The notes below the pieces were generated by a model, which was not told the DNA's origin, searched no databases, and worked only from the letters and a program-made list of their open reading frames with translations. Shown piece after piece: positions 1 through 63,052 of a stretch of 64,000 bases of DNA; position 1 is the first letter of the stretch; every line of letters begins with the position of its first letter. Source of the stretch: Sipunculus nudus (lineage: Eukaryota; Annelida; Sipuncula; Golfingiida; Sipunculidae); NCBI GenBank assembly GCA_026874595.1, contig CM049309.1:24555033-24619032 (forward strand), given 5' to 3'. The position numbers were made by a program, and so were the translations under genes.

Positions 1-545
1 ACTGACTAGGCCTTGATCACATGACCTCACCTGATATGACATGTCACACTATGACACAAGGCCCTGGCTGACTAGGGCCTGATCACATGACTTCATCTGA
101 CATGGCATATCACACTATGACACAAGGCCCTGGCTGACTAGGGCCTGATCACATGACCTCACCTGATATGGCATGTCACACTATGACACAAGGCCCTGGC
201 TGACATGGCCCTGATCACATGACGTCACCTGACATGGCATGTCAGACTATGGGGCAAGGCCCTAGCTGACCAGCCTGACCACATGACGTCACCTGACATG
301 GCCCTGGCTGACCAGGGCCTGATATCATGACCTCACCTGACATGGCATCACAGACTATGAAACAAGGCCCTGGCTGACCAGAGTCTGATATCATGACCTC
401 ATCTGAAATGGCATGTCAGACTAGATGACACAAGGACTTGGCTGACCAGTGCCTGATCACATGACCTCACCTGACATGGCATGTCACACTATGACACGAG
501 GCCCTGGCTGACTAGGCCCTGGTCTCATGACCTCACTTGACATGG
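1..545. repeat. 65-bp minisatellite, about 8 copies
   Basis: A head-to-tail array of a unit of about 65 bp runs from the window edge to about 545, so its left end is not seen. Units share the words AAGGCCCTGGCTGAC, TGATCACATGAC and TGACATGGCATGTCA and differ by point changes and small indels. It lies downstream of the CDO1 stop codon. Read on the minus strand, several units contain CAGGTGAGG, a splice-donor-like word. Confidence 0.9.
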
Positions 546-43242: not shown

Positions 43243-43379
43243 TTAGCTTGTTTTGTGTTTGTCTGGCTTCCGGTAGTAGACGGTTGATATGAACAAACTG
43301 GTATTGAGCACAGATGCCATGAGGGACGTGATGAGCATAGGCACATCCCCTGTCTGAACCAGTATTGTAAAGCAGCGAG
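43243..43379 (-). CDS. MPDU1: MPDU1 last coding exon
   Basis: 137 bp, acceptor AATGTCTTTCCAG/CTCGC, stop TAA at 43243-43245. It encodes ARCFTILVQTGD followed by a membrane helix (MLITSLMASVLNTSLFIS) and the basic tail ending KHKTS. The RxFT-x-x-x-x-TGD block is the clearest match to MPDU1. Confidence 0.9.
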
Positions 43380-46300
43380 CTGGAAAGACATTAAACTTAC
43401 AACATTCACTAATGTGAAACAGGTATGAAACAAGGAACAGAGATGTCACTAGAGGTGGTGGATTTATAAGATCTTTTAAGATTACACACTGATACCTGGT
43501 TGAATTGTTAAATTGGAAGAAATGTTAAATCCTATTAAATCCTACATTCTTTATTACATAGCAAAATATCATAACTCTTTGGTTTAATTTTCTGTTTTGT
43601 CAGAATTATCATTTTTACATGTCAGAAGCATAATCTGTGTTGCACATTCTTTTTACTGTATTCTGAATAGTGGATTCCTGTCAAAGGATTAACCCTGACC
43701 AATGATGACACATTCACTGTAATCACATACCTGTAACAATCACTTGAATTATTAGTCCCAAATAAAGCCTTGTGGGATGTAGTTGTTCCAGATATCCCAG
43801 GCAAAGTAGTTACACAGCTGCACCTTTTACTTGATAGGTTGCCTAAACAGGTCACATAATCTGACTAACAACCGTTTTGTTTATCTACCCAAGACTTTTG
43901 AGAAAGTTATGGATGCTCCTGAGTCATTCATTCAGTGTTGAACAGTCAAGAACACTAAGCTTAATGTTTCTGAAAGCCCCAGGTTAATTAATTGTATATG
44001 AAGGAAGAGCTAACTGACCACAGCATCATTATAGCTGGCATACCTGTTGCTGTATATGAGGCCATTCCCCAAGATACACTGCTGACCTGACCGGGGTCCT
44101 GCTTACGGATTATCCCCGTCAGCTGTATAAGCTTGCTAGCGGCAGATATAGGAGTCACTGTAGTCTGCAAGACAGATTATACACAGCAAAAGGAAATCCT
44201 AATTTGTTATTAATACTATACATACACTTTTGACCTAATAATGTGACATATCTTTAATCCATTATAATACAGGATGGAGTGAGCACTGCCTTGTTCAGGG
44301 CAGATCTGATGTTACAAATCTGACAAGAAATCTCACACCTAGGCATGAAACCAGACTCACATGGGTGCTAGCACGTGGGACTAGCAGTGTCTTCCACATG
44401 CTATCCACTGGAAGAAGCATTGAACCACTGTGTGATTGTGTTGGAAACTAAACTGATTAATTCAGAAATTACCAAGAGCACTTTACAGAAACCATGAGCA
44501 ATTTTATTAACTTATAATTTTGACATAATTTGACTAAAATTTTCAATTACACCCAAAACATAGTTGCTGAAAGACATTGAGGGTTGCAATGATCATTCCC
44601 CTGTCTTCACTGATCTGGAGCCCTCTATTTAAAGCACCATTTCTCATTTGTCTGGGAAATATGTAAGCATCAGTCAAACATCAAACACATCCTAATAAAA
44701 ATGTCTTTAAGAATAAAGAAGTTATTTCAAAGAATAATTCTGGTTAACTATAATACTGTCAATTTAAATTAATTGTATCAAAACTGTGCTTTCACATGCT
44801 GTCTCATGAATGCCTGTATATCAATACCAGTCACTTCTCAGTCCTGCAACTTGCACAGTATGGCTAACAATACATGATATCATGTCACATGTATGAATGT
44901 GTCTTTTAACGAATGGCACACTGAAGATGAATATTCACTTCCACTGTTTCTAATCATTTTTAAAATCCCACCTGTTATGTCATATCCAAGGAGAGCTTAC
45001 CAGTACTCTCATATTCATAGATTAATGAGTTGTCAAGATAAGTAAGGGTGCAGAGTATAATAGCCAGCCATGATCAGCATTAAGTGGACAGCTTTGCAGC
45101 AATCTTTGATTTCTGAGTGCTCACTTCTTTTATTTTAGCTCAGTGTTTACACCAATAATTGAATGTGAAAGTGCTGAAATTATTCAGTGCACAGCCATGG
45201 GAATGAAAAATGCTAAAACTTTCAAAATGTGACAACTTTAAAAATATTTAAATGATTTTGATTACCACAGGTTTCAGAAACTGTGACAAATGGTGATGAC
45301 ACTTAGCCAAGGAACTGCCATCTCTGGCAGTGTGACCTAATATCTGCTGATAAATATGACCTGAATCAAAGTGCACAAACACTGACAATTATCAATTACA
45401 GTCAAAGTTCAGGTTAAAACCAGACTGAATGCGGTGTTAACCCTGTCGCTTCTGAACCTGCTGGTCTGAAGTCAGGTTATGCTGTCTAGCTGTACTGGCA
45501 GATTTCAAGGATAAGTTTTCATTTAAATCAGTCACAAAGTTCTTCCACATGTTATAGTAGCAAAGTTCTCAAGTTTAATCTGTTGTGTTAGGCATAAGCA
45601 TCATTTACAAATACTGTTAGTATTGAAGTGATAATGTATTCAGGGTTTTGCCTGCTGTACAGGATTACTGACAGCAGTTTGTTAATTTACATTTACCATG
45701 GATGTAAAAATAAGATTCTAAACTGTTTCTTTGAGACCAAATGTACATTGGCCAAATGGATAGAAGGCATTCCTGAAAAAAAGTAAATGTATAGATGTGG
45801 TGAAAATCTGACACCTGGGGGGGAGTGATGTTTTAACTTGACTCATCCCAGAAATATAATTATTACAAATCTTATCCTCCCCTGTTCGTAACAGTGGTAC
45901 AGACATCAGAATACACATCAAGGGGATAAATCATCAAAATAACACCACAAGGGATAAGTCATCATATAACACCACAAGGGATAAGTCATCACATAACACA
46001 ACAAGGGATAAGTCATCATATAACACCAAAAGAGATAAGTCATTACATAACACCACAAGGGATAAGTCATCACATAAAACCATAAGGGATAAGTCATCAC
46101 ATAACACAACAAGGGATAAGTCATCATATAACACAACAAGGGATAAGTCATCACATAACACAACAATGGATAAGTCATCACATAACACCCCAAGGGATAA
46201 GTCATCACATAAAACCATAAGGGAATGAATCATGAATAATTCATTAAAAACACCACAAGGGAATAAATCATCACAAAACACCACAAGAAATAAGTCATCA

Positions 46301-49300
46301 GATCACATCACAAGGGATCAGGCATCACATAACACCACAAGGGATAAGTCATCACATAACACAGCAAGGGATAAGTCATCATATAACACCACAAGGGATA
46401 AGTCATCACATAACACAACAAGGGATAAGTTATCATAAAACACCCCAAGGGATAAGTAATCACATAACACCAAAAGAGATAAGTCATTACATAACACCAC
46501 AAGGGATAAGTCATCACATAAAACCATAAGGGATAAGTCATCACATAACACAACAAGGGATAAGTCATCATATAACACCACAAGGGATAAGTCATCATAT
46601 AACACCACAAGGGATAAGTCATTACATAACACCACAAGGGATAAGTCATCACATAAAACCATAAGGGATAAGTTATCACATAACACAACAGAGATAAGTC
46701 ATCAAATAACACCACAAGGGATAAGTCATCATAAAACACCACAAGGGATAAGTCATCACATAACACCACAAGGGATAAGTCATCACATAACACCATAAGG
46801 GATAAGTCATCACATAACACAACAAGGGATAAGTCATCACATAACCCAACAAGGGATAAGTCATCACATAACACAACAAGGGATAAGTCATCATATAACA
46901 CCACAAGGGATAAGTCATCACATAACACCACAAGGGATAAGTCATCACATAACACCATAAGGGATAAGTCATCACATAACACAACAAGGGATAAGTCATC
47001 ATATAACACCACAAGGGATAAGTCATCACATAACACAACAAGGGATAAGTCATCATATGACACCACAAGGGATGTCATCACATAACACAACAAGGGATAT
47101 GTCATCATATAACACCAAAAGAGATAAGTCATTACATAACACCACAAGGGATAAGTCATCACATAAAACCATAAAGGATATGTCATCACATAACACCACA
47201 AGGGATAAGTCATCATATAACACCACAAGGGATAAGTCATCATATAACACCACAAGGGATAAGTCATCATATAACACAACAAGGGATAAGTCATCACATA
47301 ACACAACAAGGGATAAGTCATCATATAACACCACAAGGGATAAGTCATCATATAACACCACAAGGGATAAGTCATTACATAACACATCAAGGGATAAGTC
47401 ATCACATAAAACCATAAGGGATAAGTCATCACATAACACAACAAGGGATAATTAAGTCATCATATAACACCACAAGGGGTAAGTCATCATATAACACAAC
47501 AAGGGATAAGTCATCACATAACACCACAAGGGATAAGTCATCACAAAACACCATAAGGGATAAGTCATCACATAACACAACAAGGGATAATTCATCATAT
47601 AACACCAAAAGAGATAAGTCATTACATAACACCACAAGGGATAAGTCATCACATAAAACCATAAAGGATATGTCATCACATAACACCACAAGGGATAAGT
47701 CATCATATAACACCAAAAGAGATAAGTCATAACATAACACCACAAGGGATAAGTCATCACATAAAACCATAAAGGATATGTCATCACATAACACCACAAG
47801 GGATAAGTCATCATATAACACCACAAGGGATAAGTCATCATATAACACCACAAGGGATAAGTCATCACATAACACAACAAGGGATAAGTCATCATATAAC
47901 ACCACAAGGGATAAGTCATCATATAACACCACAAGGGATAAGTCATTACATAACACCTCAAGGGATAAATCATCACATAAAACCATAAGGGATAAGTCAT
48001 CACATAACACAACAAGGGATAATTAAGTCATCATATAACACCACAAGGGATAAGTCATCATATAACACAACAAGGGATAAGTCATCACATAACACCACAA
48101 GGGATAAGTCATCACATAACACCATAAGGGATAAGTCATCACATAACACAACAAGGGATAAGTTATCACATAACACCACGAGGGATAAGTCATCACATAA
48201 CACAACAAGGGATAAGTCATCATATAACACCACAAGGGATAAGTCATCATATAACACCACAAGGGATAAGTCATCACATAACACCACAAGGGATAAGTCA
48301 TCACATAACACCATAAGGGATAAGTCATCACATAACACAACAAGGGATAAGTCATCATATAACACCACGAGGGATAAGTCATCATATAACACCACAAGGG
48401 ATAAGTCATCATATAACACCACAAGGGATAAGTCATCACATAACACCACAAGGGATAAGTCATCACATAACACCACAAGAAATAAATCATCACATAACAC
48501 AACAAGGGATAAGTCATCATATAACACCACAAGGGATAAGTCATCACATAACACCACAAGGGATAAGTCATCATATAACACCACAAGGGATAATTCATCA
48601 CATAACACAAACAGGGGATAAGTCATCATATAACACCAAAAGAGATAAGTCATTACATAACACCACAAGGGATAAGTCATCACATAAAACCATAAGGGAT
48701 ATGTCATCACATAACACCACAAGTGATAAGTCATCATATAACACCACAAGGGATAAGTCATCATATAACACCACAAGGGATAAGTCATCACATAACACCA
48801 TAAGGGATAAGTCATCACATAACACAACAAGGGATAAGTCATCATATAACACCACAAGGGATAAGTCATCATATAACACCACAAGGGATAAGTCATTACA
48901 TAACACCTCAAGGGATAAGTCATCACATAAAACCATAAGGGATAAGTCATCACATAACACGACAAGGGATAAGTCATCATATAACACCACAAGGGATAAG
49001 TCATCATATAACACCACAAGGGATAAGTCATCACATAACACCACAAGGGATAAGTCATCATATAACACCACAAGGGATAAGTCATCACATAACACAACAA
49101 GGGATAAGTCATCATATAACACCACAAGGGATAATTCATCACATAACACAAACAGGGGATAAGTCATCATATAACACCAAAAGAGATAAGTCATTACATA
49201 ACACCACAAGGGATAAGTCATCACATAAAACCATAAGGGATATGTCATCACATAACACCACAAGTGATAAGTCATCATATAACACCACAAGGGATAAGTC

Positions 49301-52300
49301 ATCATATAACACCACAAGGGATAAGTCATCACATAACACCATAAGGGATAAGTCATCACATAACACAACAAGGGATAAGTCATCATATAACACCACAAGG
49401 GATAAGTCATCATATAACACCACAAGGGATAAGTCATTACATAACACCTCAAGGGATAAGTCATCACATAAAACCATAAGGGATAAGTCATCACATAACA
49501 CGACAAGGGATAAGTCATCATATAACACCACAAGGGATAAGTCATCATATAACACCACAAGGGATAAGTCATCACATAACACCACAAGGGATAAGTCATC
49601 ACATAACACCATAAGGGATAAGTCATCACATAACACAACAAGGGATAAGTTATCACATAACACCACGAGGGATAAGTCATCACATAACACCACAAGGGAT
49701 AAGTCATCATATAACACCACAAGGGATAAGTCATCACATAACACCACAAGGGATAAATCATCACATAACACCACAAGAAATAAGTCATCACATAACACAA
49801 CAAGGGATAAGTCATCATATAACACCACAAGGGATAAGTCATCACCTAACACCACAAGGGATAAGTTATCACAAAAGACTTACAATAAGGGAATAAGTCA
49901 TAAAACAAGGCCTATAGGCCTAATGAGAACCTGTGCAATGGGATATACATTAGGTATAATGCATCCATGTTCGACCATTACTTTTCAAGTACATGTGTGA
50001 CATGAATATGTACAATGCAAGTACTAAACATTTTGAACTCAAGACCAAGCACCAGTAACACAAACATCACTGCTGAAATACTGGCATGGATGCACACAAC
50101 ACAAAATGATTGTAGGTGGCACTACCAGTCTTGTGTACGAGAATGCCATCAGGCTGATATGTAAAATCACTCTTGAAAAAAAGCAGGGACATATACTGTG
50201 CAAAAATTAATGTAGGTGGTGCCACCAGTCTTGTATACGACAAAGCTATTTGAGATATATACATATGCCCAATTTTAGGCTGATTATCATATCCCTCCTG
50301 AGAAATATGCAGGGACATACACTGCAAAAATAATTGTAGTTGGTAACATGGGTTTTGTATACAAGAAAGCCATCAGAGAAGCATGGACAAGTTAAAATGT
50401 CAGGGCAATACATTAAACTTCTGTTGAGTCAGGTGCCAACTGCAGCTACTGCACTGAGTGAACTCTTGACCTGAACCTAGCTGCACTGAAAGAACTCTTG
50501 ATCTGTTGCCTAATCTGATACAGTTGGTAGTCTGCCAAAGCTATAAATAGATTCAGACTGATCTTTGGCCTGTTGCCAAATCTGAAATAGTTGGCAGTCC
50601 ACCATGCTATTTATAGATACAGACACAATCTTGGCCTGTTGGTAAATCTGTAACACATACTGAAAGACTTTGGCTATCATGCTTTCTTCAAGCTGACATA
50701 TCCATAAGATTGTTTTTTTTTTAAATGTGTAGAATAATAAAAGATGTAGTCCTTTCATTATTAAAGGTCCAATAATTCTTCAAACAATCATTTCATTACA
50801 CATATCAAATGAAAAGGGAATAAGTCATCACAATTACAAAAAATAAGGGAATACGTCATCACAAAACACTTACAATGAAGGAATAAATCATCACAAAACA
50901 CTTACAATGGTGAATTAATCATCACAATACACTTACCACAAGGAAATAAGTCATCCAGTTGGGTAAAGAATTAGTAGCAAGTGAAACCACCACAGCAAGG
51001 TATCTGAGTGGAGTTAAGGAACACACATGAAATATGACTGAATGCTGTAAAACATCCTGATAAAAGTCTCTACCCATTAAGAAATGGATTTGATGTTTTT
51101 ATGTCTAAAGTACAAAATAATTTCTGTAAACAAATATCAGGGCATGTCCATTTTGTTGGAAAAGTAAACGACCACAGGTTTTAACTCTATTATGTTATAA
51201 AACAACTTCCTACTCATCCCTCCATCCATATTATACAGGAACTATAAACTTTAAGTGTGCCATTTTCAAATTTATATAAAAAGGAACTTAAACCTTTTTC
51301 ACAGTAAAGAATCCCATATGGGGTATGAGTTTATATTTGGGCTTTTTATGTTTGAATTGTAAAGGAAGGTAAAATAAGAGATGCTGTTCAGTTAATATGG
51401 GTTTCAATGCTATGAATCATGCAAATATCTTAAATGTTATTAAAAAAGTTTTACATCTGGTGAGAGAAAATGTCTGAAGGTATCTGTACCTGTCAGACAA
51501 ATGAAAGACCTGTGATTCCTATGGCTGTAAAATGTTCCCGATATCAAGCCAGCCTGACAAATGATCAATACAGTTACTTAAAATATACAGTAAAGTACAA
51601 ATATGATTTATTTCCAGAGCTTCTGACTATTATCCATACTCAAACACACTCAGCATATACGTAAACATAGTATGATATTACCTGATAAAATGAATGGGAA
51701 AAATCAAAATACATAGGCAGTTGTATAAAATAGCATGTTGACCAGAAGTGGTTACAGCCATTTTAAGTTTTGAGAGAGCATGAATGACTATCAAACCCTG
51801 ATTTCTGCTGCTCTGTTGCTGTATCAACAGTTAGAAGTCGACCAAGTCAGGAGAAAGGATACAGGCCAAACCAGCAGAATGCAGGCAGGCCCAGCAGGCC
51901 TTTCTTCTTCAGCACAACAATCAACAAAATCAAATCTGAAAAACAAGTGACCTCTGGATTCTGTTATTCTGGATATTGTTTAAAATGACAAAACAAAAGA
52001 TAAACAGGACCAGGGATACAGGAGATAACTACAGATGGAATGTTTATTCTTGGAGATCAAACCTTTTTTTGCATTTCCTTCATATGACGTATAGTTAATT
52101 GAGAAATGTGTATTTGGCAAAGAATGTATACACGATTTATCCAGAAATCTTAGCTTATGAATATATTAAGCTTCCTGCACACTGGTGATCATTTGTGACT
52201 GGGGATCAGTGACCAGTTGCAGAGTCAAGATCAAGGAGTTTCCTGCAACTCACTGAGTCTATAAACTAAAAAAAAGATTATGTCTAAGACTTTCAAAGGC

Positions 52301-58300: not shown

Positions 58301-61300
58301 CTTTTCAAATAAAGTATACACACTGTTGGTTGAATGAGGGACAAACAATATCATTATGCTAATTACAATCTAAGCTATAATTAATAACTGGAATTAATAG
58401 TCAATTTCACACCTGGTGAAGTTTTACTCTTCTGAAGTAAAGCATTACTTATCTGATGAACATCCATACTTTCATAGCAATACATCACTTTGTGGACACA
58501 ATTAAATGTGCACTTTAATCATTGTAACCCTGGTGGTACAATCCAAAATCTAAAATGTAGCATGTCCAAGAATAAAATAAAATACAGAAAATTATAACAT
58601 TCATCTAGTTTATGCACCAGCTGGGGGGGGGGGGGGGGTTGAGTGCAGGGCAGAGGAGAAGCCTGCTAGTAGTGGCCAAGCTGGGTCAAGGCAAGCTGCC
58701 TGGGGTGGGTTACATAATGCAAGTGAAGGCTGTACTACTAGGTGGGCCAGATATAAACAACACTTGACATGGTGTATGAAAACTTGAATAAAAGCTACTC
58801 TTTTCAAACAATTTCTTTGAAATTTCAGATTTGAAAAGATTAAATCCTTATGTATATATGCTGTGAAAATTAAATCAACAGTTCCCTTACAGGGAAAAAA
58901 TGTGCCACTGCCAAAGTTGGACAAAATTTAAGGTATTAATTTTTTATTTATGCTAATAACTTGAAAAATTTGCAAAATTCAGATCTAATTTTTGGCAAAC
59001 AATTGAATCTTGATTAAATAAAGTTATATTCCTGAAAAAAAGTCTTCAGCTTCAGCAATTCTCATGTTAAGTGAGCAAATATATTTCCTATTTTAAAAAA
59101 TTGCATTATATTTCGGCCTATAACTTCAAAATAATACCCAATACTGACTTAATTTTTGGTATGTGCACAGAAAATATATGGAAGAATATGAATACTAAAT
59201 ATGATCAAAAACAGATCAGTGGTTTTGATATTAGGCAGACCTGAAGTGTAACAATTGCTTTTTTATTGAAAACGGAGGTTTTTCCTTAATATCTCGAAGG
59301 AACGAAGTTCTAATGACCCAATTTTCGGTATGGTAGGAGATTTTGGGGACATCTAATGGTATGCAGAATTTTTGGATTCGTAGGTCCAACGGTTTTAAAA
59401 CGTGCCCTGTTAACGGACGGCCGGCCGGACGGACGACGGACAAAGGACCACGACTATAGCTCAGATGACTTACAGTCAGCTGAGCTAGAAATCATGTTAG
59501 GAGAGAAAATATATTCTCTGAGTTTTTATTAAGTGCAATATGTTTTGGCACTTAACTTCAAGAAATTACAAAATGCTAACCTAATTTCTATAATGTACAT
59601 AGGAAATATACAGAGGAACAATTATATTAAATTTGATCAATATTAGATCAGTGGTTTTGGTAGTATGCGGTCTTCAAGTATAACAATGAGTTTTTTTTAT
59701 TGAAAATTGAGGTTTTTTCCTTAATATCTTGTAGGAACAAAGTCATAGTGACCTAATTTTTGGTATGGTAGGAGATTTTTTGGACAAGAATGGTATTCTC
59801 AGGTCCAACAATGGATGGCCAGATGGCTGGTTGGACAAAGGACCATCACAATAGCTGAGATGACTTATAGTCAGCTGAGCTTAAAGTGGTAAGTTATGGG
59901 TTGACCAGACTGCCTGATTAAGTTACATGATGGTCTCCTTTAATAAGACAATATTCCACTTCAGAATCTTAAGAAACCAAAATTTGGTGCATATGCTGGT
60001 GCATACCAGTCTAATAACATTTTTAAAAAACATAAAAATGTATTTATATATATTATATTGATGGCTGCATATAAAAAAAACATGCCAGCAAAACATCACA
60101 GATTCCAAATTAAATGTAAGTTGGAACCTAGAAAAAGGTGCTTACCTTGGGTGACTAACAGGTAGAAAATGGTGCTTACCTTGGCTGACTAACAGGTAGA
60201 AAATGGTGCTCACCTTGGCTGACTAACAGGTAGAAAATGGTGCTCACCTTGGATGACTAACAGGTAGAAAATGGTGCTTACCTTGGCTGACTAACAGGTA
60301 GAAAATGGTGCTCACCTTGGCTGACTAACAGGTAGAAAATGGTGCTCACCTTGGATGACTAACAGGTAGAAAATGGTGCTCACCTTGGATGACTAACAGG
60401 TAGAAAATGGTGCTCACCTTGGATGACTAACAGATAGAAAATGGTGCATTCCTTGGATTACTTAGAACAAATAGAAAATGGTGCTTACCTTTGACAACTA
60501 ACTGGTAGAAAATGGTGCTTTCCTTGGTAGACTTAGAACAATTAGAAAATGGGGCTTACCTTGGAAATCTAACAGAAAGAAAATGGTCCTTACATTGGAA
60601 GACTTAGAACAATTACAAAATGGTGCTTTCATTGGAAGACTAACAGGTAGAAAATGGTGCTCACCTTGGAGGTCTAACAGGTAGAAAATGGTGATTACCT
60701 TGGATGAATAACAGGTAGAAAATGGTGCAAACCTTGGATGAATAACAGGTAGAAAATGGTGCTTTCCTTGGAGGACTTGCACAAGTAGAAAGTTGTGCTT
60801 ACCTTGTATGACTAACAGGTACAAAATGGTGCTCACCTTGGCTGACTAACAGGTAGAAAATGGTGCTCACCTTGGCTGACTAACAGGTAGAAAATGGTGC
60901 TCACCTTGGATGACTAACAGGTAGAAAATGGTGCTCACCTTGGATGACTAACAGGTAGAAAATGGTGCTCACCTTGGCTGACTAACAGGTAGAAAATGGT
61001 GCTCACCTTGGCTGACTAACAGGTAGAAAATGGTGCTCACCTTGGATGACTAACAGGTAGAAAATGGTGCTCACCTTGGATGACTAACAGGTAGAAAATG
61101 GTGCTTACCTTGGCTGACTAACAGGTAGAAAATGGTGCTCACCTTGGCTGACTAACAGGTAGAAAATGGTGCTCACCTTGGATGACTAACAGGTAGAAAA
61201 TGGTGCTCACCTTGGATGACTAACAGGTAGAAAATGGTGCTCACCTTGGATGACTAACAGATAGAAAATGGTGCATTCCTTGGATTACTTAGAACAAATA

Positions 61301-61780
61301 GAAAATGGTGCTTACCTTTGACAACTAACTGGTAGAAAATGGTGCTTTCCTTGGTAGACTTAGAACAATTAGAAAATGGGGCTTACCTTGGAAATCTAAC
61401 AGAAAGAAAATGGTCCTTACATTGGAAGACTTAGAACAATTACAAAATGGTGCTTTCATTGGAAGACTAACAGGTAGAAAATGGTGCTCACCTTGGAGGT
61501 CTAACAGGTAGAAAATGGTGATTACCTTGGATGAATAACAGGTAGAAAATGGTGCAAACCTTGGATGAATAACAGGTAGAAAATGGTGCTTTCCTTGGAG
61601 GACTTGCACAAGTAGAAAGTTGTGCTTACCTTGTATGACTAACAGGTACAAAATGGTGCTTTCCTTTGATGACTTACAGACAGAAAATGGTGCTCACCTT
61701 GGATGACTAACAGGTAGAACTCAAAGTATGTGGAGACCTGGTACCCTCGTGAGTAGGGGTAGGCCAGCAACAAGGAAAAG
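43243..61780 (-). CDS. MPDU1: Mannose-P-dolichol utilization defect 1 homologue, 3' five exons
   Basis: Multi-pass ER membrane protein of the PQ-loop family, needed for use of dolichol-phosphate-linked mannose and glucose in glycan and GPI-anchor assembly. Exons on the minus strand: 61698-61780, 51863-51935, 50937-51003, 44044-44164 and 43243-43379, with agreeing phases (1, 2, 0, 1). Translated parts include AYPYSRGYQVSTYFEF, LVIQDLILLIVVLKKKG, PISAASKLIQLTG and ARCFTILVQTGDVPML, which line up with the C-terminal half of animal MPDU1. The end KHKTS fits a K-x-K-x-x ER retrieval signal. The 5' exons lie right of the window. No stop or frameshift is seen in these exons. Two introns hold minisatellites made from their own donor junctions. 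Confidence 0.87.
44044..44164 (-). CDS. MPDU1: MPDU1 penultimate exon
   Basis: 121 bp, acceptor CTGTCTTGCAG/ACTACA, donor CAACAG/GTATGC. It encodes TPISAASKLIQLTGIIRKQ and PGQVSSVSWGMASYTAT, the second PQ-loop region (Q, G-x-x-S). Confidence 0.88.
44165..45921 (-). other. MPDU1 intron sequence, no gene
   Basis: 3' part of the 6.8-kb intron between exons 50937-51003 and 44044-44164. AT-rich and mostly unique-looking; no exon or repeat array recognised. Confidence 0.6.
45922..49893. repeat. 27-bp minisatellite, about 147 copies
   Basis: Plus-strand unit words: AAGGGATAAGTCATCACATA and ACACCAC. The period is a multiple of three, so all frames without stops stay open for hundreds of codons on both strands (9-residue periods such as DKSSHNTTR and the antisense MTYPLWCYM). 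Units differ mainly at a few sites (CACATA/CATATA, CCAC/ACAAC/CCATA). Copies at about 48590-49130 and 49131-49670 repeat as a block of about 541 bp. The array ends leftward near 45922 and rightward in a 32-bp-type unit at 49862-49905. It lies in an MPDU1 intron. Confidence 0.95.
49894..50810. other. Intron spacer with GTGGCGCCAC-family copies
   Basis: Separates the main 27-bp array from its long-unit relatives. It contains two copies of the AGGTGGTGCCACCAGTCTTG family (50112 and 50212) and a local duplication (TTGATCTGTTGCC / TTGGCCTGTTGCC, about 50500-50640). Confidence 0.65.
50811..50963. repeat. 30-32-bp ancestral units leading out of the MPDU1 donor
   Basis: About five units on the minus strand, each with GATGA-TTAT, a CCTT-like part, GTAAGT (or GTAATT) and TTGT. 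The first unit is exon tail plus donor of exon 50937-51003. The units are older and more diverged than the 27-bp array. Confidence 0.85.
50937..51003 (-). CDS. MPDU1: MPDU1 internal exon after the U12-type intron
   Basis: 67 bp, acceptor CCACTCAG/A, donor CTTGTG/GTAAGT. It encodes YLAVVVSLATNSLPNW then MTYFLV, matching the hydrophobic segment before the second PQ-loop. The last part of the exon and its donor are the ancestor of the 27-bp array. Confidence 0.8.
51004..51862 (-). other. U12-type (minor spliceosome) intron of MPDU1
   Basis: 859-bp GT-AG intron. The 5' splice site reads GTATCCTTT (51862-51854), the full U12 consensus. TTCCTTAAC, the U12 branch consensus, lies at 51021-51013, placing the branch A about 10 nt before the 3' AG. 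There is no strong polypyrimidine tract. These three signs together are diagnostic by established knowledge. Confidence 0.88.
51863..51935 (-). CDS. MPDU1: MPDU1 internal exon before the U12-type intron
   Basis: 73 bp, acceptor TTGTTTTTCAG/AT. It encodes LILLIVVLKKKGLLGLPAFC and on to WFGL, a membrane helix and loop. The donor GTATCCTTT is atypical for the major spliceosome but is the U12 consensus. Without splicing here the frame stops at TGA within four codons. Confidence 0.82.
51936..53229 (-). other. MPDU1 intron, left part
   Basis: Part of the 9.8-kb intron between exons 61698-61780 and 51863-51935. AT-rich with scattered repeat fragments (GTAGGTGGTGCCAGCAG at 52971). No exon recognised. 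Confidence 0.55.
53230..53492 (+). mobile_element. Family H4 tail fragment
   Basis: Ends with GACCAGACAGACAGTGGAC, then a degraded hairpin and GTCAGCTGAGCTAA at about 53480, the standard H4 terminus on the plus strand. Confidence 0.55.
53764..54910 (-). mobile_element. Helitron-like family H1, uninterrupted copy
   Basis: Starts CTAG at 53764 followed by GGACCCATAGGTCTC and runs to the CTAG of the next element at 54911. It provides the empty-site reference for the YR insertion (54100-54230 versus 1681-1743 joined to 3356-3400). Repeated CCTGTGACCTTGACC blocks suggest an internal repeat of about 300 bp. Confidence 0.6.
54911..55972 (-). mobile_element. Helitron-like family H2, longer copy
   Basis: CTAG at 54911, then the hairpin TCAGCT-GA-AGCTGA. 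The other end has the hairpin CATCAGCC/GGGCTGATG followed by GCTAAAAA at about 55972. The middle is an internal repeat of about 290 bp (AAACGTAGAAAAATAGGTC / AAACGTATGAAAATAGGTC). Same family as 4351-5022. It abuts H1 exactly where H3 abuts H1 at 3971. Confidence 0.6.
55978..56690 (+). repeat. GGTGGCGCCACC-family copy split by an insertion
   Basis: 55978-56068 and 56536-56690 are continuous in the relative at 5806-6058. The interruption is the 467-bp element described separately. Confidence 0.75.
56069..56535. mobile_element. 467-bp inserted element with 7-bp target duplication
   Basis: Flanked by ATATTCA at 56062-56068 and 56536-56542; the empty-site relative at 5898 has a single copy. Related to 23945-24605 without that copy's extra 180 bp. 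No frame and no obvious inverted termini. It could be a SINE-like or hAT-like non-autonomous element. Confidence 0.75.
56691..57002 (+). mobile_element. Family H4, 5' part, interrupted by family D
   Basis: Runs from CTTGACATGGTG-type words to CTGATAACTTAAAC, matching 58760-58970, and is cut off where family D begins with AAGGGACCC. Confidence 0.6.
57003..57640 (+). repeat. Family D, forward copy
   Basis: Starts GGGACCCATGGGTCACGGCG. About 600 bp matching 37300-37895 in reverse. A second GGACCCATGGGTCATG lies at 57610, so another family member may start at the end. Confidence 0.8.
57641..58649. other. MPDU1 intron, AT-rich stretch
   Basis: No gene or recognisable array. A poly-G run lies at 58623-58638. 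Confidence 0.55.
58650..59490 (+). mobile_element. Family H4, best forward copy
   Basis: Runs from AAGCCTGCTAGTAGTGGCC to a GGACGGCCGGCCGGACGG tract and the hairpin AGCTCAG...CTGAGCT (59458-59486), ending GCTAG. This is the most complete copy of H4 in the window. Confidence 0.7.
59491..59886 (+). mobile_element. Family H4, second partial copy in tandem
   Basis: Repeats the H4 3' half (TAATATCTTG-AGGAACAAAGTC, GGTATGGTAGGAGATTTT, GTTGGACAAAGGACCATC) and ends GTCAGCTGAGCTTAAA. Confidence 0.65.
60119..61720. repeat. 35-bp minisatellite made from an MPDU1 exon/donor junction, about 46 copies
   Basis: Plus-strand unit words: AACAGGTAGAAAATGGTGC and TCACCTTGGATGACT. Read on the minus strand each unit is TTCTACCTGTTAGTC + ATCCAAG (exon tail) followed by GTGAGCACCATT (intron start). 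The first unit is the real exon end (61698-61719). Two blocks (60426-60830 and 61253-61657) are near-identical copies 827 bp apart. Confidence 0.95.
61698..61780 (-). CDS. MPDU1: MPDU1 internal exon (first seen)
   Basis: 83 bp, acceptor TTTTTTTGACAG/C, donor CATCCAAG/GTGAGC. It encodes 27 residues ending EFYLLVIQ, with one base over. Its last 22 nt are the first unit of the 35-bp array that continues into the intron. Confidence 0.85.
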
Positions 61781-61904: not shown

Positions 61905-63052
61905 ATAACGACACTAAAGTGATACAAAGATATCAGTCTTATCCTCCTATTACCATACTGTGTGATACAAAGATATCAGTCTTATCCTCCTATTACCATA
62001 TTGTGTGATACAAAGATATCAGTCTTATCCTCCTATTACCATACTCTGTGATACAAAGATATCAGTCTTATCCTCCTATTGCCATACTGTGTGATACAAA
62101 GATATCAGTCTTATCCTCCTATTGCCATACTGTGTGATACAAAGATATCAGTCTTATCCTCCTATTGCCATACTGTGTGATACAAAGATATCAGTCTTAT
62201 CCTCCTATTGCCATACTGTGTGACACAAAGATATCAGTCTTATCCTCCTATTGCCATACTGTGTGACACAAAGATATCAGTCTTATCCTCCTATTGCCAT
62301 ACTGTGTGACACAAAGATATCAGTCTTATCCTCCTATTGCCATACTGTTTGACACAAAGATATCAGTCTTATCCTCCTATTACCATACTCTGTGATACAA
62401 AGATATCAGTCTTATCCTCCTATTGCCATACTGTGTGACACAAAGATATCAGTCTTATCCTCCTATTGCCATACTGTTTGACACAAAGATATCAGTCTTA
62501 TCCTCCTATTACCATACTCTGTGATACAAAGATATCAGTCTTATCCTCCTATTACCATACTGTGTGATACAAAGATATCAGTCTTATCCTCCTATTACCA
62601 TACTGTGTGATACAAAGATATCAGTCTTATCCTCCTATAACCATACTGTGTGATACAAAGATATCAGTCTTATCCTCCTATTACCATACTGTGTGATACA
62701 AAGATATCAGTCTTATCCTCCTATTACCATATTGTGTGATACAAAGATATCAGTCTTATCCTCCTATTGCCATACTGTGTGACACAAAGATATCAGTCTT
62801 ATCCTCCTATTGCCATACTGTTTGACACAAAGATATCAGTCTTATCCTCCTATTACCATACTCTGTGATACAAAGATATCAGTCTTATCCTCCTATTACC
62901 ATACTGTGTGATACAAAGATATCAGTCTTATCCTCCTATTACCATACTGTGTGATACAAAGATATCAGTCTTATCCTCCTATAACCATACTGTGTGATAC
63001 AAAGATATCAGTCTTATCCTGCTATAACCATACTGTCTGATACAAAGACAAT
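61905..63052. repeat. 43-bp minisatellite, about 26 copies
   Basis: Unit words: GATACAAAGATATCAGTC, TTATCCTCCTATTACC and ATACTGTGT. Highly homogeneous with a few alternating variants (TTGCC/TTACC, GACAC/GATAC), which themselves recur in order, suggesting block duplication. It lies in the MPDU1 intron upstream of the first exon seen. Confidence 0.95.

Follow-up and report, generated by a model that had tools for sequence, protein, structure and literature searches.

About 46 tandem copies of a splice-donor junction reaching into an intron of a putative SLC66A3 gene

The window (the whole stretch of 64,000 nucleotides analysed here) carries exons of a gene which, judged by similarity to human proteins, is SLC66A3/PQLC3, and which holds the tandem array that is the subject of this study (Table 1). 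Human SLC66A3 matches five minus-strand exons in collinear order. The joined exons align to SLC66A3 with 102 bits and to MPDU1 with 65 bits; the latter, which the original prediction had named as the host, is a relative and not the gene itself. Single exons are weak in tblastn, and only the stretch 44051-44155 reaches a good E-value (2.2e-5). Exon 2, which encodes the end of a codon for C, FSLLLAYPYSRGYQVSTYFEFYLLVIQ and then G at its border, is supported by the gapless alignment of exons 1 and 2 around their junction. The exon called 4 reads (A)YLAVVVSLATNSLPNWMTYFLV/GTAAGTG behind the acceptor CTCCACTCAG and is aligned by blastp, in register, to human YIAVLVSS..LQKWIIDLAMNLCTFISAASK; alone, it was not found by tblastn with the human sequence. 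Exon 3 was found neither by tblastn nor by phase-constrained enumeration between 60119 and 51003, and may be short or diverged. Exons 5 and 6 alone gave no PQ-loop match in Pfam.

Table 1. Exons of the putative SLC66A3 gene and tandem repeats at its splice junctions (window positions unless a contig is given).
Feature	Position	Strand	Basis
SLC66A3 exon 1	C4:24620272-24620423 (3.5 kb past exon 2, not in the window)	minus	tblastn; PQ-loop match
SLC66A3 exon 2, 83 nt, phase 2 in/phase 1 out	61698-61780	minus	collinear tblastn (alone E 0.27)
Authentic 5' splice site of exon 2, AAG/GTGAGC	61692-61697	minus	PWM score 11.0
34-bp x 46 donor-junction array	60129-61719	minus	first copy overlaps exon (61698-61719)
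605-nt block inside the array, recurring identical at 60220-60824	61047-61651	minus	offset 827 bp
SLC66A3 exon called 4, 67 nt	50937-51003	minus	blastp alignment in register
3-4 decayed copies (~32 bp each) of the exon-4 donor junction	50820-50936	minus	TRF 50848-50955; first two keep GTAAGTG
27-bp x ~146 array, derived from the exon-4 donor junction	45923-49905	minus	alignment to junction
SLC66A3 exon called 5 (TTVTPISAASKLIQL...MASYTATG)	44044-44164	minus	tblastn E 2.2e-5
SLC66A3 last coding exon, to TAA stop	43243-43379	minus	tblastn

Exon 2 ends, on the minus strand, in ...TTCTACCTGTTAGTCATCCAAG/GTGAGCACCATT, and 46 gapless tandem copies of a 34-nt stretch spanning this exon-intron border reach into the intron as far as position 60129. 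The observation that a splice-donor junction lies here in some 46 copies, beginning inside the exon itself, had been made in the original prediction and is confirmed: TRF run on the window reports a period of 34, 46.1 copies and 85% matches, and wraparound alignment yields 46 units and a 5-nt remnant. The unit comprises 22 exonic and 12 intronic nucleotides, one fewer than the 35 bp (22 + 13) proposed earlier; in 8 of the 46 units, 2-3 extra nucleotides are present. The first unit consists of the last 22 nt of the exon followed by GTGAGCACCATT, i.e., the array is contiguous with a real exon that is coding by homology. Since exon 2 is conserved coding sequence in the SLC66A3 register, the exon is the source of the array. 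Copies 2-13 are degenerate, and many more distant copies are almost identical to the exon. Part of the copy number stems from a recent internal block duplication: the two blocks at an offset of 827 bp are identical over 605 nt, differ at 5 positions across the 696 nt compared and carry their variant units in the same order.

Most copies retain a strong donor, as had been predicted. GT is kept at the donor position in 37 of the 46 units, GTRAG in 33 and AAGGTRAGC in 31 (the authentic site included), the latter with scores of 11.0-11.2 on a 5' splice site PWM that underlies all donor scores given here. By this measure 35 units score at least 7, and 31 of them match the strength of the authentic site. 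Translation running in frame past exon 2 meets its first stop at intron nucleotides 57-59, within the 20 codons or so foreseen. The accompanying claim that use of the next donor shifts the frame has to be amended: copy 2 lacks GT, so that the next strong in-register donor sits at +68 nt and hence beyond the stop, and among strong donors only the first precedes it. Five other GTs lie ahead of the stop, all of them weak and out of register with the repeat; the best (5.2) adds 20 nt and is out of frame. GTs that keep the frame occur at +24, +48 and +54 nt, with scores of -1.7, -2.0 and 2.8. Overall, the earlier interpretation thus stands for the junction, the gapless start, the donors and the stop, but has to be revised for the gene and the unit length.

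A second set of junction repeats follows exon 4 of the same gene, the end of which reads GATGACTTATTTCCTTGTG/GTAAGTGTATTGTGATGA. The decayed ~32-bp copies set in at once behind the exon and are followed by ~0.9 kb of other sequence and then by the 27-bp array. Aligned to the 27-bp unit, the exon-4 junction scores 38, compared to a maximum of 24 among 4998 random 56-mers drawn from the window; against the first copies of the array the score rises to 43, ungapped over 34 nt. The exon-4 donor junction seeded both the ~32-bp copies and the ~146-copy array. Its splice signals are kept in the outermost copies only: the 3983 bp of the 27-bp array contain a single GTAAGT, located in the first copy, and no GGTRAG. 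Donors have therefore met two fates within SLC66A3, being kept in the 34-bp array and lost in the larger 27-bp array.

Further tandem repeats surround these two. An array of 26 copies of 43 bp (61919-63048, 96% matches) adjoins the 34-bp array in SLC66A3 intron 1. A junction origin of this array is unsupported: its best local score, 23 against the region upstream of exon 2, reflects a 14-nt match to an apparent decayed copy of the flank, and the exon-1 region scores 11. A 66-bp tandem array (window positions 2-545 and C4:24554489-24554999) apparently crosses the left edge of the window. Altogether, 124 kb contain eight TRF rows with a period of 27-66 and at least 3.5 copies, six of which lie inside the window, and five of six flanking 10-kb pieces contain none.

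Arrays of this kind recur elsewhere in the genome. A three-copy AAGGTGAGC pattern identifies six arrays (49 matches), three of which start at an exon end: the SLC66A3 array, an array of 41 copies of 39 bp at a TRPC-like exon (PDB match 4.5e-8; Pfam Ion_trans), and one at an exon on C2 (L017) with an open frame, no Pfam match and no support from PDB (0.2). A PDB search with the exon at L050 returned nothing. At the AAGGTGAGC arrays on C9 and C17 no exon was recognised, and the array on C6 lies on the opposite strand and repeats the acceptor junction of a malic enzyme exon (4.4e-10). The three-copy AGGTAAGT pattern has 762 matches in the genome, and the matches listed contain at least 22 arrays. 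Among the 21 of these that were resolved, 13 begin, by reading, at an exon whose end coincides with the first donor. Homology backs four of the 13 exons, namely ABCC (1.3e-9), PRKAR1 (8.6e-25), HADH (8.2e-8) and Arv1 (Pfam 0.0013, at 19.5 bits just under the cut-off of 20); another has a weak PH match (0.03), and the remaining eight were judged by eye from an open frame and an acceptor. No exon could be recognised at L048, L058, L059, L061, L062, L063, L068 and L070. Flanking sequence was searched in Pfam for 16 of the 21 AGGTAAGT arrays and for two AAGGTGAGC arrays.

Two of the 13 arrays, at 73.79 and 73.83 Mb of C3, belong to one exon in a nearby duplicate: the loci C3:73793138-73794637 (L067) and C3:73830600-73832099 (L071) share this exon (..DDEENDAGSISDQDFDDYLG / ..DDEDSDAGSISDQDFDDYLG), and behind it each has a donor-junction array made of ~22-bp units. 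The array is either older than the duplication or arose twice. The array at C4:24479403, the one of the 22 outside the resolved set, was read over ~4 kb, with its 5' end lying beyond; this 45-bp array, some 75 kb from the window, fills ~4 kb (C4:24479346-24483345; L066, L069) with copies that contain AGGTAAGT. A 58-bp-period array at C1:1041372-1046191 (5' end at L112), with almost 80 listed copies of AGGTAAGT, falls outside the spacing of the pattern and has no obvious exon at its 5' end.

Acceptor junctions have been multiplied as well. For the three-copy TTTTGCAG pattern (150 matches), 25 arrays are listed; the 3' ends of 20 of them were taken, and 18 were resolved. In three of the 18, the unit runs into the start of an exon, belonging to USP39 (1.2e-15), to NPR1 (4.1e-6) and, at L084, to an open frame. 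A further two arrays stop at an exon or ~10 nt ahead of it: one exon is KChIP-like (1.3e-23 to calsenilin, 2.6e-23 to KChIP1), and the other resembles PSMD1. At the other 13 resolved TTTTGCAG arrays no exon was recognised.

Minisatellites that carry splice signals are known from other animals. In the human 6-16 gene (IFI6/G1P3), according to work attributed to Turri et al. in 1995, a minisatellite reportedly supplies multiple splice donors to the transcript. The SLC66A3 array is similar, but for IFI6 downstream units are reported to be used as donors (PMC4526556). The closest relatives are the "mirages" of amphioxus, described at the 5' and 3' borders of globin genes and of Adh3, with length variation and somatic instability; RT-PCR indicates that splicing is undisturbed there, and a role in intron gain has been proposed (PMC3087553). 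PGBD5 and troponin C were later added to the lancelet cases (PMC3902484). The mirages of Adh3, BflGb6/BflGb9, PGBD5 and troponin C share with the SLC66A3 array a minisatellite-like duplication across an exon-intron border, many copies of which keep splice signals. The unit measures 10-72 bp in the amphioxus Adh3 mirage and 34 and 27 bp in SLC66A3; copies number 3 and 6 in the two BflGb6 haplotypes reported, as opposed to 46 and ~146 here. In genes from human segmental duplications, internal tandem repeats at exon-intron boundaries can change splicing; these repeats form novel introns (PMC2812944), whereas the SLC66A3 array sits within an existing one. One published duplication of an intron-exon boundary likewise crosses the border, but is single and gives a new intron rather than an amplified array. 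The nearest mollusc case met is a 27-bp minisatellite in intron 3 of an abalone kinase gene, for which no relation to the splice site is stated (PMC6905558); a partial literature search met no report of mirages in molluscs, which says little about the printed record at large. The class is thus already published for lancelets, and the SLC66A3 array, known from the sequence of a single assembly, adds a case in another genome, of 1.43 Gb.

We consider it probable that the array belongs to the mirage type of splice-junction minisatellites and that it originated by duplication of the border, grew by slippage or unequal exchange and is tolerated through use of the 5'-most donor. A short tandem duplication across the border of exon 2 and intron 2 would have come first. 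Such a duplication would be invisible to the mRNA provided that splicing proceeds from the 5'-most donor, so that slippage or unequal exchange could lengthen the array on its intronic side; the block duplication at the 827-bp offset enlarged it more recently. Selection on the protein would hold the exon copy, which may be why the start of the array stays within the exon. The spliceosome would normally use the 5'-most donor and leave the mRNA unchanged, and the array may be tolerated for this reason, being a side effect of minisatellite turnover that is silent in splicing. However, silence cannot simply be assumed, since 31 of the 46 donors, the authentic one among them, score 11.0-11.2 and downstream donors are reported to be used in IFI6; the weak in-frame GT (2.8) 54 nt into the intron, ahead of the stop, also speaks against it.

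If the array donors were used, as the downstream donors of the human IFI6 minisatellite reportedly are, a ladder of mRNAs carrying premature stops would result and might lower SLC66A3 output by NMD or truncation, to a degree that depends on allele length. The number of high-scoring units would fit this idea, as would the two downstream repeat units reported as donors in IFI6 (PMC4526556). Yet lancelet mirages with intact splice signals left splicing undisturbed in the reported cases, and the nearest competitor in SLC66A3, copy 2, has no GT; we regard such a ladder as unlikely. A function for the donor copies themselves is conceivable, too: U1 "telescripting" is a known phenomenon, and many strong 5' splice site-like sequences within one intron could have been selected to form a field of U1 snRNP sites that shields a long intron from premature cleavage and polyadenylation. 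Against such selection, the sister array in SLC66A3 lost its donors while growing to ~146 copies, T+2 is lost in 5 of the 12 degenerate near-exon copies of the 34-bp array (unit positions 16 and 25 vary more), and arrays arise at acceptors as well, which makes a shielding field very improbable.

A different question is whether exon borders are special birthplaces of minisatellites, through transcription- or splicing-linked breakage or AGGT microhomology, beyond what random births would produce. We find this rather doubtful, and a birth bias towards splice sites is not shown. Besides the 13 exon-end arrays (by reading) among the 21 resolved, the triple matches per genomic site favour AGGTAAGT (762/45924) over its reversed word (610/67855). 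By contrast, AAGGTGAGC triples are rarer than those of the reversed word (49 vs 123), and TTTTGCAG triples compare as 150 to 115. Moreover, matches inside one array are non-independent, and the control matches listed fall in three arrays; for the control word TGAATGGA, total matches are usable and array counts unusable. A blind exon score, based on human codon usage, was set against a null of 442 AGGT sites in the window and against 19 control AGGTAAGT sites outside large arrays. The first version, with a strict polypyrimidine rule, missed clear exons, and the rule was relaxed after that result had been seen. In its relaxed form, 9 of 21 arrays exceed the 95th percentile of the null compared to 4 of 19 controls, but the stricter score gives 4 of 21 and 2 of 19; the 19 controls were all taken from within the first 2.3 Mb of C1, and a repeat contains two of the four controls that pass the relaxed score. 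Even the relaxed score misses supported exons: L060 reaches the 90th percentile, in another frame, and L064 and L067 failed, the latter owing to a mis-set first donor. The region is also rich in minisatellites, as the eight TRF rows indicate, so that random births may suffice.

Returning to the mirage-type origin, its interest lies partly in the intron itself, where dozens of equally strong donors in tandem amount to a natural test of 5' splice site choice, and partly in the recurrence at conserved genes (a PKA regulatory subunit, HADH, TRPC and ABCC at donors; malic enzyme, the splicing factor USP39 and NPR1 at acceptors), which suggests that mirages are more than a peculiarity of lancelets. 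These loci form a set in which to ask whether introns are gained through tandem duplication at exon borders, and they call for caution among gene annotators, who may meet false alternative donors. It seems rather unlikely that a non-lancelet animal genome makes splice-junction minisatellites above chance at both donors and acceptors, with the 5'-most of dozens of equal donors being picked; if this were true, each such gene would be a test of donor choice and a reservoir of new introns and exons. As a side observation on the assembly, the contigs C60-C89 (e.g., L113-L115), which reach the Mb scale, contain cytochrome oxidase I frames of 577-578 aa that are 43-48% identical to a metazoan query, and probably represent bacterial associates.
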